Below are positions 1-18,294 of a DNA stretch of 64,000 bases, one piece after another. The stretch's first letter is position 1. Every line of letters begins with the position of its first letter. The stretch is taken from assembly GCA_028281925.1 (NCBI GenBank), contig JANQIX010000073.1, positions 1-64,000 on the forward strand, read 5' to 3'. Under the pieces are notes generated by a model. That model was given only the letters and a program-made list of their open reading frames with translations. It did not search any database and had not been told where the DNA came from. The position numbers were made by a program, and so were the translations under genes. The DNA is from Alphaproteobacteria bacterium. GTDB lineage: Bacteria > Pseudomonadota > Alphaproteobacteria > DSM-16000 > Inquilinaceae.

Positions 1-366
1 CTCGCCATGGGCGAGAACCTGCACACGATCCACGAATTCGGCTACGCTTTCGCCGATGCCAAGCTCTCCTACATCCAGCCCGACGCGTCCAACTGCGGCG
101 GCATCACCGGCTGGCTGAAAGTGGCGGAGCGGTCGATCGCACGCGGGATCCCGGTCTGCAGCCACGGCATGCAAGAGCTGCATGTGAGCCTCGTCTCGGC
201 CCGGCCGAATGCCGGATGGCTGGAGGTGCACAGCTTCCCGATCGACGCCTACACGACACGACCTCTGGTCATCGAAGACCATCTGGCCGTCGCACCCTCG
301 ACCCCGGGTATCGGCGTGGAGTTCGACTGGCCGAAACTTGAAGCTGCGCACAGGCGCGCAGCTTGA
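1..366 (+). CDS. Enolase-superfamily (mandelate racemase type) sugar-acid dehydratase, C-terminal part
   Basis: The reading frame is open from base 1, so the 5' end lies outside the window. About 121 C-terminal residues are visible. They include the end of the enolase-superfamily barrel: a GEN motif (third metal-ligand Glu), [10 protein letters not shown], and CSHGMQELH, which carries the His and Glu expected in mandelate-racemase-subgroup active sites. The gene at 3475-4593 has the same C-terminal layout, so the locus holds two members. The substrate is probably a sugar acid, because a TRAP transporter follows directly, but it cannot be read from this fragment. The family call is secure and the specificity is not. 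Confidence 0.85.
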
Positions 367-12283: not shown

Positions 12284-13195
12284 TTACTCTGCCGGATTAT
12301 TAGCAATAACCAAGGCCCAGAACCGGTCGACGATCGGGCGGCTCTTCTCGATCGACCGGTAGATTCTGATATCCATCTCGATTTCCCAGGGCGGTCCGCC
12401 GGCCGGCACCAGCCGCTCGCCTCCGGCCCCCTCGCCTGCCGCCATCCCGGGCAGCCACACCAGGCCGTGGGATTTCTGGGCCAGCGCCTTCAGCACCAGG
12501 GCGATGGAATTCTCGATGCGCGGAACCAGGCACGCCTGTTCGCCGGCCCGTTCCAGGATGATCGACACCAGGCGCCCGTAGAACGACTGGGCCGTGTAGG
12601 CGAGATAGGGCAGCGGCGCGTCCGCCGAGCCGGGCAGCCGAAAGCGGGCATCACCGCCCTCGGTCGCCGCGGACAGGGGCAAGAGCCGGTCGGTCCCCAG
12701 ACGGACGGAGGGAAACAGCCTGGGGTCCAATTCGAACGTGATCTCAGGATGCGCATAGCAGAACAGGAAGTCGCAATCGCCGTCGGTCAACGCCTGCACG
12801 CAGTCCAGCAGGTTGTCGGCCACCAGCCGTGTCTTGAACTCGCCCATGCCGTCTTCGAACTGGCGCAGCCAGCCCGGCAGGAAGCACTGCGCCAGGGTGT
12901 GCAGCGCTGCAAAGCTCAAGGTCGCCTGCGCCGCCCTCTCCCGGTTGCGAAGATGATCGCGCTGGTCGCGCAGCGTGCGGACCATCTCCTGCGCCGTGGT
13001 CAGGAACGCCTGTCCGGCCGGCGTCAGATGCGTGGGATACGAACTGCGGTCGACCAGCGGCACGCCGACCCAGATTTCAAGGGATTTGATGCGGCGGCTG
13101 AACGCCGGCTGGGTGACATGGCGCTCCTCCGCCGACCGGGAGAAGCTGCCGGTCCGGGCCAGGCTCAGAAAATCCTCCAGCCACTTAAGTTCCAC
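12284..13195 (-). CDS. LysR-family transcriptional regulator, divergent from the aspartase operon
   Basis: A 303-residue LysR protein. The helix-turn-helix is at residues 1-60 (MELKWLEDFLSLARTGSFSR, then VTQPAFSRRIKSLEIWVGVPLVDR), followed by an effector-binding domain. The MELKWLEDFLSL opening and EIWVG segment resemble the YjiE/HypT-like branch. It is transcribed away from the aspartase, symporter and racemase genes with 365 bp between, the standard LysR arrangement, so it is the likely regulator of aspartate utilisation. No good ribosome binding site is visible before its ATG. Confidence 0.9.
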   Translation of the reverse strand: MELKWLEDFLSLARTGSFSRSAEERHVTQPAFSRRIKSLEIWVGVPLVDRSSYPTHLTPAGQAFLTTAQEMVRTLRDQRDHLRNRERAAQATLSFAALHTLAQCFLPGWLRQFEDGMGEFKTRLVADNLLDCVQALTDGDCDFLFCYAHPEITFELDPRLFPSVRLGTDRLLPLSAATEGGDARFRLPGSADAPLPYLAYTAQSFYGRLVSIILERAGEQACLVPRIENSIALVLKALAQKSHGLVWLPGMAAGEGAGGERLVPAGGPPWEIEMDIRIYRSIEKSRPIVDRFWALVIANNPAE

Positions 13196-13560
13196 TTGGG
13201 CTCTACCTCAACGGCCGGCGACACATGGCTTTCGATACACCACGGTAACCGGCTGTGACCCAGCCGTCACGCTGCGGACGATCTTCGCTGCCCACATGTC
13301 AGCCCAAGCCCGCCGCCGGGTTGTGCCGTCGGGCAGGCGGCCAAAAATGAGAACTATAAAGAAAACGCATAGAGCTAAACGCGGCAAACATACTATGCCG
13401 CACCCTCATGAACACGAGCGACATCGGCATTGGAAGGCTTAAATCATCTCCGATACAATTACAGACACCCTCTAAGAGATGACAGAATTGGATTGCGAAG
13501 CATTGTGATTGGCTTTGACGGCTGATCACAGCATGCGCAGCCTTGGTCGGGAGATGCCTG
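13196..13560. other. Divergent control region between LysR and aspartase
   Basis: This 365-bp gap is lower in GC than the flanking genes, especially 13340-13500, and holds no recognisable gene. It should contain the promoters of both divergent genes. The only clear symmetric element is the inverted repeat at 13504-13530. A GGGAG ribosome binding site for the aspartase lies at about 13548-13552. Confidence 0.5.
13504..13530. promoter_or_regulatory. Inverted repeat upstream of the aspartase (regulator-site candidate)
   Basis: TGTGAT at 13504-13509 and ATCACA at 13525-13530 form a perfect dyad with a 15-bp spacer, ending 30 bp before the aspartase ATG. The half sites look like CRP half sites, but the spacing is far too wide for CRP (6 bp). 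A wide-spaced dyad fits a LysR tetramer site better, matching the divergent regulator. Confidence 0.3.
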
Positions 13561-15420
13561 ATGAATACTCTTGATCTCATCCGCAAACTGGAAGTGTTTG
13601 CGGATCTCGAGAACCATCAGCTTAGCTCCCTTGCCGAAGCCGGCCGCGGGCAAACCTGCGCCGCCGGCCAATACCTGTTCCGGCAGGGCGAACAACGGGA
13701 TCGGCTTTTCGTTATCCGGTCGGGCGAGGTCGAGACCCTGGGCCATCTCGGGGCCGAGTCAGTGACGCTCGCGCGGCTTGGAGGCGGCCAGTGCATCGGC
13801 GGCGCGCTGGACGACGGTCTTCCGCCTGACGCGTCCTGCAGGGCCGTCGTAGACACCGACGTTGTCGCGTGGCCGTGGGCGGAAGTCGACGCAGTCTTCC
13901 GGCAGGCACCGGGCGCCGCCCGCAGCGCCCTGGCCCGGCTTGCGGAGAAGTCCGCGTCCCGCCCTCCTCAGCCAGATGCGTGCAAGAGCGCGGAGCAGCG
14001 CCTGGAGCATGATCTGCTGGGTGACCGCGCGGTACCGGCCAACGCCTATTTCGGGCTGCAGACCCTGCGGGCGGTCGAGAACTTCCAGATCACGGGTACA
14101 CCGCTCAGCCAGTACCCGACCTTCGTCAGGGCCATCGCCATGGTCAAGAAGGCCGCTGCGCGCAGCAATCGCGCCCTCGGCCTCTTGAAGCCCGAGATCG
14201 CGGAGGCCATCGCCCAGGCCTGCGACGAGATCATTGCCGGACGGCTGATGGATGAATTCGTCGTCGACATGATCCAGGGCGGAGCCGGCACGTCGACCAA
14301 CATGAACGCCAATGAGGTGATCGCAAACCGCGCCCTGGAACTGATGGGCCACGGCAAGGGCGATTATCGGGTCGTCCACCCCAACAACCATGTGAACCTG
14401 TCGCAGTCCACGAACGACGCCTATCCGACAGCCATCCGCCTGGCGATCCTGCTCAGCTACGAAGACCTCGTCCGCGCAATGGACGACCTCTGTTACGAGC
14501 TGAAGCAGAAGGCCGTCGAATTCTCCGACGTCATCAAGATGGGCCGCACCCAGCTGCAGGACGCGGTACCGATGACGCTGGGCCAGGAGTTTGATGCGTT
14601 CTACGCCACCGTGAAGGAGGACATCGCCCGCATCCGCGACCTCGTCGCCCTGTTCCGCGAGATCAATCTGGGCGCGACCGCGATCGGCACGGGCATCAAC
14701 ACCCATCCCGACTATGCCAATCTGGCGGTGGAGGAACTCTCACACATCTCCGGCATCGAACTGGTGCCGGCGTCCAACCTGGTGGAGGCGACGTCGGACA
14801 CCGGCGCGTTCGTCACCTTCTCCGGCGTGCTGAAGCGGGTCGCCGTCAAGATCTCCAAGATATGCAACGACCTGCGCCTGTTGAGCAGCGGCCCCAGGGC
14901 GGGCTTGGGCGAGATCAACCTGCCGCCGATGCAGCCCGGCTCCTCCATCATGCCCGGCAAGGTCAATCCGGTGATCCCTGAGGTCGTCAACCAGGTCGCC
15001 TATCAGGTGATCGGCAATGATCTGACGGTGACCATGGCGGCGGAGGCCGGGCAGCTTCAGCTCAACGTCATGGAGCCGCTGATCGCGTTCAACGTGCTGC
15101 AGTCCATCCGCATGCTGACCCAGGCCATGACGGTTCTGGGCAGCCGCTGCGTCAAAGGCATCTCCGCCAACCGCGAGCGGTGCCGCGAGCTGGTCAACAG
15201 CAGCATCGGCATCATCACCGCGCTGAACCCCTACATCGGATACGAGAATTCCTCCCGCGTGGCCAAGGAGGCACTGCGGCGGGGATGCGGTGTCACCGAA
15301 CTGATCCTCGAAGAAGGCCTGCTCACGGCCGAGCAGCTCGAGGACATCCTGAAGCCGGAGAACATGATCCGGCCCCGTCGCGTGTCCGCACCCGCGACGG
15401 CACACGCGGTGGGTGCCTGA
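13561..15420 (+). CDS. aspA: Aspartate ammonia-lyase with N-terminal cyclic-nucleotide-binding-like domain
   Basis: 619 residues. Residues ~146-619 are a full-length aspartase (about 474 residues, as in classical AspA), with TSTNMNANEVIANRA and the fumarase/aspartase signature GSSIMPGKVNP that covers the flexible catalytic Ser loop. The enzyme converts L-aspartate to fumarate plus ammonia. Residues 1-125 form a CAP/cNMP-binding-type beta roll (LFRQGEQRDRLFVIRSGEVE). In the phosphate-binding cassette the usual GE is IGG (Gly81) and the usual Arg position is Ala91, so canonical cAMP binding is doubtful. GGGAG lies upstream of the ATG; a TTG at 13543 is a weaker alternative. It leads the symporter-racemase operon. 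Confidence 0.93.
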   Translation: MNTLDLIRKLEVFADLENHQLSSLAEAGRGQTCAAGQYLFRQGEQRDRLFVIRSGEVETLGHLGAESVTLARLGGGQCIGGALDDGLPPDASCRAVVDTDVVAWPWAEVDAVFRQAPGAARSALARLAEKSASRPPQPDACKSAEQRLEHDLLGDRAVPANAYFGLQTLRAVENFQITGTPLSQYPTFVRAIAMVKKAAARSNRALGLLKPEIAEAIAQACDEIIAGRLMDEFVVDMIQGGAGTSTNMNANEVIANRALELMGHGKGDYRVVHPNNHVNLSQSTNDAYPTAIRLAILLSYEDLVRAMDDLCYELKQKAVEFSDVIKMGRTQLQDAVPMTLGQEFDAFYATVKEDIARIRDLVALFREINLGATAIGTGINTHPDYANLAVEELSHISGIELVPASNLVEATSDTGAFVTFSGVLKRVAVKISKICNDLRLLSSGPRAGLGEINLPPMQPGSSIMPGKVNPVIPEVVNQVAYQVIGNDLTVTMAAEAGQLQLNVMEPLIAFNVLQSIRMLTQAMTVLGSRCVKGISANRERCRELVNSSIGIITALNPYIGYENSSRVAKEALRRGCGVTELILEEGLLTAEQLEDILKPENMIRPRRVSAPATAHAVGA

Positions 15421-15470
15421 CTGCGACCGGCATTCGCTGCTCCCATGCCCCTAAGTCGGGAGGAACGAAA

Positions 15471-16778
15471 ATGACAACGCAAGAAACGGGTACAGGGAAG
15501 AAGCGACACTTCTTGTCCTTCTGGACCGGCATGAAGCTCTGGCAGCAGATCTTCATCGGCCTGATCGCCGGCCTGATCGTCGGCGCGATCCTTGGGCCGT
15601 CGGCCGCGGCGATCAAACCGATCGGCACCGTCTTCATCAATCTGATCAAGATGCTGATCGTGCCGCTGATCTTCGTGTCGCTGGTCTGCGGCGTCACGGC
15701 GATGCACGACGCCAACAAGATGGGCCGCATCGCGCTGAAGACCATCGTGATCTACCTCATGACCACGGCGGTCGCGATCACCATCGGGCTGGGGCTCGGC
15801 ACGCTGCTGCAGCCGGGGGCCGGCATCGACATCACCGCGGCATCGACGGTGGAAGCCAGAGAAGCGCCGACCCTGGTCGACACTCTGATCGGCCTGTTCC
15901 CGACCAACCCCATCGCCGCGATGGCCAACGGCAGTGTCCTGCAGATCATCGTATTCGCCATTTTGTTCGGTATCGCCATCAACCTCGCCGGCGAAGCCGG
16001 CGCGAAGATCCGGCAGTTCTTCGAGTGGATGGCAGAGGTCATCTACAAGCTGACGGGTGTCATCGTTGCGCTGGCGCCCTATGGCGTGTTCGCGCTGATG
16101 GCCTGGGTCGCCGGCACCTACGGGATGGACGTGCTGCTGCCGCTGGGGATGGTCATCCTTGCGGTCTATCTGGGCTGCGTCATCCACGCGATCGTCGTCT
16201 ATGGCGGTGCGATCTCGCTGGTCGCCAAGCTCAATCCCATCCGGTACTTCCAGGGGATCGCCGAGGCGCAGGCCGTGGCGTTCACCACAACCAGCAGCTC
16301 CGGCACGCTGCCGGTGACGATGAGCTGCACCCAGAAGAACCTCGGCGTGTCGCGGGGCGTGTCCAGCTTCGTGCTGCCGCTGGGGGCGACCATCAACATG
16401 GACGGCACGGCCCTCTATCAGGGCGTGTGCGCCCTGTTCGTGGCCCAGGCCTTCGGCATCAGCCTCGGCTTCGACCAGTATGTGACCATCATCCTGACCG
16501 CCACGCTGGCCTCGATCGGCACGGCGGGCGTGCCGGGCGCCGGTCTGATCATGCTGTCGCTGGTGCTGACCTCCGTCGGCCTGCCGCTGGAAGGTGTCGC
16601 CATCATCGCCGGCATCGACCGCATCCTCGACATGGCGCGCACGGCGCTGAACGTGACCGGTGACGGCATGGTCTCGGTCGTGGTGGCCAAGAGCGAGGGC
16701 GAGCTGGACGAGGCAACCTACGGCAAGCCACACGTCCTGGGAGCCGAGGACGGGGCCGAGGAAGCGGCCGCCCATTAG
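15471..16778 (+). CDS. Dicarboxylate/amino-acid:cation symporter (DAACS family)
   Basis: A 435-residue polytopic transporter of the glutamate/aspartate/C4-dicarboxylate family (GltP/DctA/GltPh fold). The two re-entrant-loop motifs are present, TTSSSGTLPVT (normally SSSATLP) and GATINMDGTALYQG, along with the NMDGT cation site. The ATG at 15471 follows GGGAGGAACGAAA. It is 50 bp downstream of the aspartase and 67 bp upstream of the racemase, so aspartate in either configuration is a reasonable substrate. The polar C-terminal tail is rich in Glu and Ala. Confidence 0.93.
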   Translation: MTTQETGTGKKRHFLSFWTGMKLWQQIFIGLIAGLIVGAILGPSAAAIKPIGTVFINLIKMLIVPLIFVSLVCGVTAMHDANKMGRIALKTIVIYLMTTAVAITIGLGLGTLLQPGAGIDITAASTVEAREAPTLVDTLIGLFPTNPIAAMANGSVLQIIVFAILFGIAINLAGEAGAKIRQFFEWMAEVIYKLTGVIVALAPYGVFALMAWVAGTYGMDVLLPLGMVILAVYLGCVIHAIVVYGGAISLVAKLNPIRYFQGIAEAQAVAFTTTSSSGTLPVTMSCTQKNLGVSRGVSSFVLPLGATINMDGTALYQGVCALFVAQAFGISLGFDQYVTIILTATLASIGTAGVPGAGLIMLSLVLTSVGLPLEGVAIIAGIDRILDMARTALNVTGDGMVSVVVAKSEGELDEATYGKPHVLGAEDGAEEAAAH

Positions 16779-16845
16779 GCGGCAGTTGGGGGCGTCGGCT
16801 GCGCGGCCGGCGCCCCTGCCCCTTCCGCCAACCGAGACGAAACCG

Positions 16846-18294
16846 ATGGAAAAGCAGAGGCTCGGCATTGTCGGCGGGCTGGGCCCCCTTGCCGGGGCCG
16901 ACATCTTCTTCAAGCTGGTGAAGTCCACGCCCGCCGCCAGCGACCGCGAGCATCTGGACATCATCTTCGAGCAGCACCCGTTCGATGACGGCCACGCGGC
17001 CGCGGACGAAACGTTCAGCCCGAATGCTCGGAAGTTCTACATCTACGACACGATCCGGCAGCTGGAGAAGCGGGACGTCGGCGCCATCGTGCTGACCTGC
17101 TTCATCAGCCACACCTTCCTCGATGAGATCCAGTCGGAGATCAAGCCGCCCATCATCAGCATCATGAACGCTCTGACGGCGTATTGCCGGCGCGACTACC
17201 CGACGGTCCGGAGGCTGGGCATTCTCACCTCCACCTACGCGAGCCGGAAGCGGCTGTTCGAAAACGCGTTCGGCGCCGGTGTCGACCTGATCTATCCGAA
17301 CGACCAGGTCCAGCGAGACTGCCTGATGGAAGCCGTCTACGGCCCGCGCGGCATCAAGGCGGGGCATCTGCGCGGCCGGTCCATCGATCTTATCCACCGC
17401 GCCTGCCGCGACGTCATCGACCAGGGGGCCGAGCTGATCCTGCCCGGTTTCACCGAGATCCCAATCGTCATCGACCAACTGCGCCAGGCGTTCAACGTGC
17501 CGATCATCGACTGCAACCAGGTCTATGCCGACCACGCCATCGCCTTCCACGGGCTTGCCGCTGCTCGGCCGTACAAGATCGGGGTCGTCGGCGGCGTCGG
17601 CCCAGCAGCGACGGTCGACTTCATGAACAAGGTGGTCGCGCACACGCCGGCCGACCGCGATCAGGACCACATCAAGATGATCGTGGACCACAATCCGCAG
17701 ATCCCCGACCGCACCGCCAACCTGATCGGCGACGGCGCCGACCCGACGATCCCGCTCTATTCGGCCTGCAAGACGCTGGAGGCTGAAGGCGCGGACATGA
17801 TCGCGATCCCCTGCAACACGGCGCATGCCTATGTGGAGCGGATCCAGCGGTACCTGGCGATCCCCATCGTCAACATGCTGTTCGAAACCGTCGCCCATAT
17901 CCGGCGCGCTCACACGGACTGCCGCACGGTCGGCCTGCTGGCGACGGCGGGAACGGTCGCCAGCCGCGTCTATCACGAGATGCTGGATGCAGGCGGGCTG
18001 CGGACCGTCGCACCCGATCAGGCCCAGCAGGATCTGGTGATGCGCGCGATCTACGGCGAACGGGGCGTCAAGGCCGGCTATACCGACGGGCAGTGCCGGG
18101 AGGATCTGCTGCAGGCGCTTGAAAACGTCGTCGACAAGGGCGCCGAAGTAGCGATCCTCGGCTGCACCGAACTGCCGCTGATCCTGCCGCAGTCGAGCGC
18201 ATTCGAGATCGCCGGCAAGACCGTCGCCCTGATCGACCCCACGGACATCCTGGCCCGCAAGACCGTCGATCTCTCAGGGCAACGGTCTCAGTAA
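16846..18294 (+). CDS. Tandem aspartate/glutamate racemase-family protein (two fused domains)
   Basis: 482 residues, twice the usual ~230-240, made of two racemase domains (1-240 and 242-482), each opening with a Gly-rich strand (LGIVGGLGPLAG and IGVVGGVGPAAT). The C-terminal half has both catalytic cysteines, Cys323 in PCNTAH and Cys440 in GCTELP. The N-terminal half keeps Cys85 (LTCFISH), but the second position is Phe202 (PGFTEIP), so it probably cannot do the standard two-base racemisation. Placement after aspartase and symporter suggests D-aspartate conversion to L-aspartate. The ATG at 16846 has a weak GAGACG site. A hydantoin- or other-substrate racemase is possible. Confidence 0.85.
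   Translation: MEKQRLGIVGGLGPLAGADIFFKLVKSTPAASDREHLDIIFEQHPFDDGHAAADETFSPNARKFYIYDTIRQLEKRDVGAIVLTCFISHTFLDEIQSEIKPPIISIMNALTAYCRRDYPTVRRLGILTSTYASRKRLFENAFGAGVDLIYPNDQVQRDCLMEAVYGPRGIKAGHLRGRSIDLIHRACRDVIDQGAELILPGFTEIPIVIDQLRQAFNVPIIDCNQVYADHAIAFHGLAAARPYKIGVVGGVGPAATVDFMNKVVAHTPADRDQDHIKMIVDHNPQIPDRTANLIGDGADPTIPLYSACKTLEAEGADMIAIPCNTAHAYVERIQRYLAIPIVNMLFETVAHIRRAHTDCRTVGLLATAGTVASRVYHEMLDAGGLRTVAPDQAQQDLVMRAIYGERGVKAGYTDGQCREDLLQALENVVDKGAEVAILGCTELPLILPQSSAFEIAGKTVALIDPTDILARKTVDLSGQRSQ

Follow-up and report, generated by a model that had tools for sequence, protein, structure and literature searches.

In the usual teaching, a cofactor-free racemase is a symmetrical machine whose two cysteines work within a homodimer. 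The tandem Asp/Glu racemase gene at 16846–18294 (plus strand) of the window, that is, the whole stretch of 64,000 nucleotides of alphaproteobacterial DNA analysed here (contig JANQIX010000073.1), raises the question of what becomes of this machine when two racemase domains are joined in one chain and only one of them keeps the cysteine pair. It is approached here through the architecture, residue pattern, conservation, selection, co-inheritance and gene context of the protein, all of which were observed directly. The best reading, with a probability of about 0.66, is that the gene encodes an aspartate racemase of a D-/L-aspartate cluster, with an active C-terminal half (C-half) and a conserved pseudo-racemase N-terminal half (N-half) as its built-in partner. 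No description of a tandem or fused aspartate racemase was found in open-licence PMC papers.

Architecture of the Tandem Racemase

On translation, the open reading frame gives 482 amino acids and a stop, and the protein is recognised by the NCBIfam models TIGR00035 and NF052483. Against Pfam, the whole protein matches PF01177 in two stretches (E 6.4e-73, 245.5 bits, cut-off 31). In a genome search, each half alone also exceeds this cut-off, with 96.0 bits at 16870–17535 and 152.6 bits at 17587–18261, and since both do so separately, the match is not a chance one. The fusion of two full racemase domains that had been read from the sequence alone is thus borne out. The pseudo-racemase N-half comprises residues 1–239 (16846–17562, plus strand) and the C-terminal racemase half residues 242–482 (17569–18291, plus strand; 248 bits on NF052483). 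A Pfam match to AvrPto in one N-half out of 35 (E 0.0052) was taken as chance.

AlphaFold2 modelling of the window protein together with 34 relatives gave a mean pLDDT of 89.6 and a pTM of 0.60, and for the N-half alone a pLDDT of 91.7 and a pTM of 0.90. Both halves take the racemase fold in the models; each is predicted with confidence, their relative placement is not. The best solved match of both is 2dx7 (Z 28.4 with an rmsd of 1.8 over 221 residues for the N-half, Z 31.4 for the C-half), and 5ell matches the N-half with Z 22.8.

In the half-to-half alignment, Cys85 (codon 17098–17100) is paired with Cys323 (17812–17814), and Phe202 (17449–17451) with Cys440 (18163–18165), all on the plus strand. 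Direct residue counting and alignment therefore agree with the earlier observation that the C-half has both catalytic cysteines, and the N-half Cys85 with a phenylalanine in the second place. With gaps counted, Arg289, Cys323, Lys409 and Cys440 correspond to residues 48, 82, 164 and 194 of 1jfl, which we take to serve in substrate holding and proton transfer, Arg48 and Lys164 being those that hold the substrate. The C-half thus carries, in Arg289 and Lys409, the equivalents of Arg48 and Lys164 of the Pyrococcus horikoshii aspartate racemase. This enzyme (1jfl, 2dx7) shares its fold with both halves and all four active-site positions with the C-half; it differs in being a single domain of 228 residues without a fused pseudo-domain. 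The N-half lacks the second cysteine, the substrate arginine and the asparagine of the CNTxH motif, and the NPQIPDRT stretch that contains the substrate arginine is gone from it. On its sequence, it is a member of the PF01177 fold and not a two-cysteine racemase.

Residue Conservation in the Two Halves

Residues were counted in 67 tandem proteins, the window protein included, a set weighted to one family. Left out were L028, which ends after residue 258 at the end of its locus, L031 (Sutterella), whose frame is mostly N, three partial genes, and L036, a single domain. Repeats were counted once (L001, L005, L009 and L038 repeat the window, and L010 repeats L017), and the short loci L039–L073 were replaced by wider versions before counting.

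In the C-half, Arg289, Cys323, Asn324, His327, Lys409, Thr441 and Glu442 are each present in 67/67 proteins, and Cys440 in 66/67. The one exception, L146, has a tyrosine in place of the second cysteine (GYTELP), with the SDF and LysR neighbours still there. In the N-half, Cys85 is kept in 65/67, being replaced by serine in L140 and L144, and position 202 is a cysteine in none of the 67: it holds Leu (36 proteins), Met (14), Ile (7), Ala (4), Phe (3), Val (2) or Ser (1). The comparison of homologues that the sequence-only reading had called for thus confirms the loss of the second cysteine, and the acid/base residue that all homologues might have carried in its place is not there. Six flavobacterial tandem proteins have a cysteine at 201, one place before.

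The N-half also retains His89 (63/67), Thr203 (61/67) and Glu204 (65/67), with Lys171 kept as lysine in 53 proteins and as arginine in 11. Its substrate-arginine position is not conserved among the tandem proteins, and the place of the C-half Asn324 is occupied by Phe86 (66/67). Several conserved residues are specific to the N-half, namely Gln43 (60 of 67), Arg62 (59), Lys63 (65), Phe91 (65), Cys187 (62), Asn224 (64) and Tyr227 (66). Columns that are at least 95% identical number 20 in the N-half versus 82 in the C-half; the N-half is less constrained than the C-half, yet still constrained. As a conserved homologous domain without the catalytic residues, it is, as far as alignment can tell, a probable pseudoenzyme.

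Distribution of the Fusion

The pattern is not a local accident, as the same fusion recurs at 43–54% identity in Alpha-, Beta- and Gammaproteobacteria and in Flavobacteriia. A protein search of genome contigs yielded 15 loci, which by their titles belong to Rhodospirillales, Tardiphaga, Methylobacterium, Pseudomonas quercus, Burkholderia, Sutterella and five flavobacterial genera. The search of plasmid records extends this list by Caballeronia, Burkholderia, Paraburkholderia, Leisingera and Phaeobacter; at least 80% of the query is covered in 12 of the 21 matching records, although one of the 12 (Acetoanaerobium, L036) has just one domain, to which the query aligned two times. One of the 15 loci, titled as an Anaerolineae metagenome-assembled genome (L017, JANQQD010000055.1) has a cluster 92–99% identical to that of the window, so that its title looks misassigned; another close relative of the window, L028, is titled Rhodospirillales.

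In whole-genome searches, the full tandem is found in 2/17 genomes of the family to which the window belongs, namely its own genome and that of a congener. The searches gave 2/385 genomes in the class, the window's own among them, and 4/398 in a phylum sample, including the window's own and one with the C-half only. In a family with Burkholderia-like clusters, the count is 45/249 genomes with 48 places: the tandem form stands at 45, and three hold little beyond the C-half. In another family it is 2/148. These counts make the fusion patchy but widespread.

Loss to a single domain is rare in the Burkholderia-like family (3/48 places), and two of the three cases are truncated remnants; the third, in G784, retains a shortened N-half that lacks Cys85. 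The two remnants, the Cupriavidus-type L154 and L155, were considered as a natural single-domain form and rejected: each has about 38 aspartase residues directly before the C-half. L042 and L074 show the same arrangement. In all four loci, the LysR gene and a frame with the C-half only are what remains after an apparent deletion of the racemase N-half together with most of the aspartase. Apparent fusions of the SDF symporter to the racemase, seen in some genomes as stop-to-stop frames of 836–1036 amino acids, were rejected as well: in the four that were read, the upstream part is GC-rich shadow sequence, and the SDF gene sits there in its own frame.

Selection and Origin of the Halves

Between the window protein and its 95% identical relative L017, the one pair compared, dN/dS is 0.093 for the N-half and 0.084 for the C-half, which suggests that the N-half is under purifying selection as strong as that on the C-half. 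Across 1326 pairs from 52 proteins, the pairwise distances of the two halves are correlated with r = 0.96, with the N-half diverging 1.54 times as much as the C-half (slope). A profile of the N-half, run over 248 related genomes, gave 44 N-half matches, all in fused frames (43 at 252–357 bits and an eroded one at 165), and no stand-alone gene of N-half strength was found in these genomes. The other matches are weaker: tandem C-halves score 138–165 bits, three genes with the C-half only 125–127, and the five single-domain racemases among the matches listed 97–104. These data fit a single ancient fusion that has been passed on as a unit.

How the halves came together was addressed with a tree of 78 rows, built from 34 of the 39 single-domain racemases found (three shorter than 180 amino acids, one duplicate and one very divergent row were dropped) and from 22 of the 52 tandem proteins, picked for diversity. 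The N-halves form one clade (100/100) and the C-halves another (100/99), with stem lengths of 1.61 and 0.60, respectively. A tree uniting the two can be neither dismissed nor preferred (p-AU 0.095), so that a paralogue which had diverged beforehand may have been fused on just as well as a copy made by duplication. The sequence-only reading had proposed duplication followed by loss of racemase chemistry in the first half. The loss is upheld by the missing cysteine, arginine and asparagine, and the duplication is neither shown nor refuted.

The name "degenerate half", given in the same reading, undersells an old, widely inherited and selected domain with conserved residues of its own. Were the N-half only a decaying relic or a passive linker, one would expect the erosion seen in single lineages, such as the shortened N-half without Cys85 in G784 (L153) or the divergent one in L029, and the roughly 1.5-fold faster evolution is in line with it. 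This explanation is nevertheless very unlikely, since the dN/dS of the N-half is similar to that of the C-half, the domain has been kept in two phyla with its own conserved residues and a confident predicted fold, and its deletion is as rare as noted above.

The Gene Cluster and Its Neighbourhood

Upstream of the racemase gene lie two genes of the same orientation. The first (13543–15420) encodes an aspartate ammonia-lyase (PF00206, PF10415; 729.5 bits on the TIGR00839 model aspA, cut-off 681.2) with an N-terminal CRP-like domain of the cNMP-binding type (PF00027), and the second (15465–16778) an SDF dicarboxylate/amino acid:cation symporter (PF00375, 464 bits), probably an aspartate importer. 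The aspartase and symporter genes are separated by 44 bases, and the symporter and racemase genes by 67. A divergent LysR-type regulator (12284–13195, minus strand; PF00126, PF03466) is the probable regulator of the cluster, and downstream of the racemase Pfam identifies a GFA-family protein on the opposite strand. A putative D-aspartate utilisation set (racemase, aspartate transporter, aspartase and LysR regulator) is complete at 12284–18294, and it recurs elsewhere. At the left edge of the window (1–300) lies the coding sequence for the end of an enolase-superfamily protein (MR_MLE_C in Pfam).

The surroundings of 66 other tandem genes were scanned over about 5–13 kb, some stretches being ended by the contig; an SDF gene lies near 44 of them, a related LysR gene near 46, and an aspartase gene near 21, counts that are weighted to one family and not independent. 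The order varies: it is LysR-SDF-racemase-aspA in Burkholderia pyrrocinia, and the racemase gene of Leisingera and Phaeobacter comes directly after aspA, with SDF behind it (on the opposite strand in Leisingera). Near the flavobacterial tandem genes, no SDF, LysR or aspartase gene was present in the stretches scanned.

The CRP-like domain on the aspartase is shared with 1/66 other tandem clusters (L017); PF00027 also precedes the aspartase in L028. Its best match elsewhere, over 190 genomes of the class, is a weak one of 46 bits. Judged by eye, the domain lacks the usual glutamate of the phosphate cassette and may not bind cyclic nucleotides. In Pseudomonas quercus, the tandem gene is followed by a gene for a second racemase-like protein, which has one domain and is extended far at its N-terminus (L030:7724–8893; 109.5 bits on NF052483, below the cut-off).

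For the LysR protein of the window, the best NCBIfam model is PRK10082 (HypT), with 120.5 bits, below the cut-off of 301. The regulators of the window and homologous loci all score best on this model, at 120–154 bits, and the SRL-type regulator, which stands beside a racemase linked to D-aspartate, passes it with 406 bits; the name HypT may be misleading for this LysR branch. The operator ATGC-N7-GCAT, reported for DarR and AalR, has a single occurrence in the window (169), versus 2.36 expected by chance; it is not near the cluster and is absent from the LysR–aspartase intergenic region.

Substrate and Related Systems

That aspartase, SDF symporter and racemase stand together suggests aspartate as the substrate. 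A similar assembly is reportedly known from Acinetobacter baylyi, where Bedore et al. (2022) are said to have described racD, aspA, aspT and aspY with the regulators DarR and AalR in growth on D-/L-aspartate. The likeness extends to the racemase, the aspartase, the aspartate transporters and the LysR regulators.

It is improbable that the C-half acts physiologically on cysteate, as CuyB does, or on another aspartate analogue instead. Such a substrate would explain why the C-half passes the model NF052483 (racemase_CuyB, cut-off 190), which the N-half fails with 122.6 bits, and why a gene annotated as D-cysteine desulfhydrase, presumably a relative of CuyA, lies about 4.6 kb away in Phaeobacter (L035). 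The recurrent neighbours, however, are aspartase and SDF symporter genes, and the window cluster itself has the aspartase, not sulfonate genes (the role of CuyB is described in PMC11382572). Moreover, the single-domain racemase of the SRL type (E. coli copy, L156), linked to D-aspartate by phenotype in PMC6980539, scores 249 bits against 248 for the C-half. The model thus cannot discriminate between the substrates, and it labels D-aspartate-linked racemases as cysteate racemases. CuyA, the cysteate sulfo-lyase, was not among the window neighbours scanned with Pfam and NCBIfam.

The SRL locus of Shigella is tied to D-aspartate use by its phenotype and by orf8-orf9 complementation, and its D-aspartate set, as given in PMC6980539, comprises a HypT-type LysR regulator, a racemase of one domain and a dicarboxylate transporter. 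The E. coli copy was located via a primer from that paper. It resembles the window cluster in the divergent HypT-type LysR gene, the racemase of the CuyB/asp_race type and the dicarboxylate transporter. The differences are that its racemase is a single domain of 239 amino acids (36% identical to the C-half and 27% to the N-half), that the transporter is DcuA according to PMC6980539 and not an SDF protein, and that, unlike in the window, no aspartase gene was seen within the 8 kb examined. The primer given there for orf8 alone starts ATGGGGCCGGCAGCTAC, which matches Met11 (MGPAA) of the 239-amino-acid racemase (L156:4146–4865). The orf8-only clone may therefore miss the fold's initial ten residues, a loss that could contribute to its failure to complement (PMC6980539).

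Proposed Working of the Enzyme and Role of the N-Half

The substrate, the direction of the exchange and every role of the N-half are what we infer from the observations above. Aspartate would be imported by the SDF symporter, and the C-half would interconvert D- and L-aspartate by cofactor-free 1,1-proton transfer between Cys323 and Cys440, with Arg289 and Lys409 holding the substrate. The adjacent aspartase would drain L-aspartate to fumarate and ammonia. Two findings set limits to this scheme: the C-half also passes the CuyB cut-off, and the flavobacterial genes are without the cluster neighbours.

The N-half, missing the second cysteine and the substrate arginine, very probably does not perform ordinary racemase chemistry. 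In the fungal family member OpaE, as reported in PMC12661438, C199S retains at most 0.3% of activity and C90S 4.8%, and loss of the second cysteine should therefore abolish racemisation. The sequence-only reading had cautioned that some single-domain racemases, such as YgeA, lack one cysteine, which is right in substance: PMC12661438 also gives a Thr83/Cys197 pair for EcL-DER. EcL-DER/YgeA (5ell) shares with the N-half the Asp/Glu racemase fold and the lack of one cysteine. It retains the second one, whereas in the N-half the first is retained and the opposite position is without an acid/base residue.

The EcL-DER case makes it conceivable that the N-half is still an enzyme of another kind, in which Cys85, joined by Gln43, Arg62, Lys63, His89, Lys171, Thr203 and Glu204, acts on an aspartate-related ligand, for example in a one-base isomerisation or as an unbalanced racemase pair. 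Cys85, Phe86, Lys63, Glu204, His89, Gln43 and Arg62 are indeed kept in 59–66 of the 67 proteins, like a retained pocket, and EcL-DER functions with its Thr/Cys pair. We regard this as unlikely: position 202 is hydrophobic or small throughout (with one serine), the cysteine kept is the opposite one to that of EcL-DER and is itself a serine in two proteins, and the substrate arginine is not conserved.

Because the N-half is selected, never free in the 248 genomes and provided with conserved residues of its own, a partner role, structural or allosteric, is favoured. The P. horikoshii aspartate racemase is a homodimer, as are the single-domain relatives of the tandem racemase. Most likely, the N-half would be built in as the partner of the active half, in place of the second subunit of such a homodimer. 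The two halves may form an intramolecular dimer, though with a pTM of 0.60 the whole-protein model places them without confidence. That the N-half role is essential is made less probable by the shortened N-half of G784, by Ser85 in two proteins and by single-domain racemases being sufficient elsewhere.

A ligand in the N-half pocket may also tune the active half. A possible, though tentative, extension of the partner role is that the N-half is an aspartate-sensing pseudoenzyme, whose allosteric pocket would bind aspartate in one of its isomeric forms, or a dicarboxylate related to it, and set the rate or direction of the fused racemase half. Cys85/His89, Gln43, Arg62/Lys63, Lys171 and Thr203-Glu204 would line this pocket. 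Cys85, Gln43 and Arg62 are all kept in 44/45 SDF-linked tandem proteins (the window included) versus 12/22 unlinked ones (Fisher p 2e-5, uncorrected for kinship and with the three residues chosen after the alignment had been seen), and the C-half quartet is intact in 44/45 and 22/22, respectively. The residues thus relax where SDF is not adjacent, as a sensor tied to uptake predicts; the same pattern could also stem from shared ancestry.

Biological Meaning

Here, then, is a natural and widespread fusion in which one copy is without the catalytic machinery yet keeps the fold, one thiol and its own conserved residues. It offers a test case for why an inactivated racemase domain is kept, be it for stability, for dimer replacement or for sensing. 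If the sensor role proves true, the enzyme would read the very aspartate pool that it manages. The tandem racemase with the SDF symporter and aspartase may serve as a marker by which soil, plant-associated and marine bacteria that use D-aspartate can be spotted.
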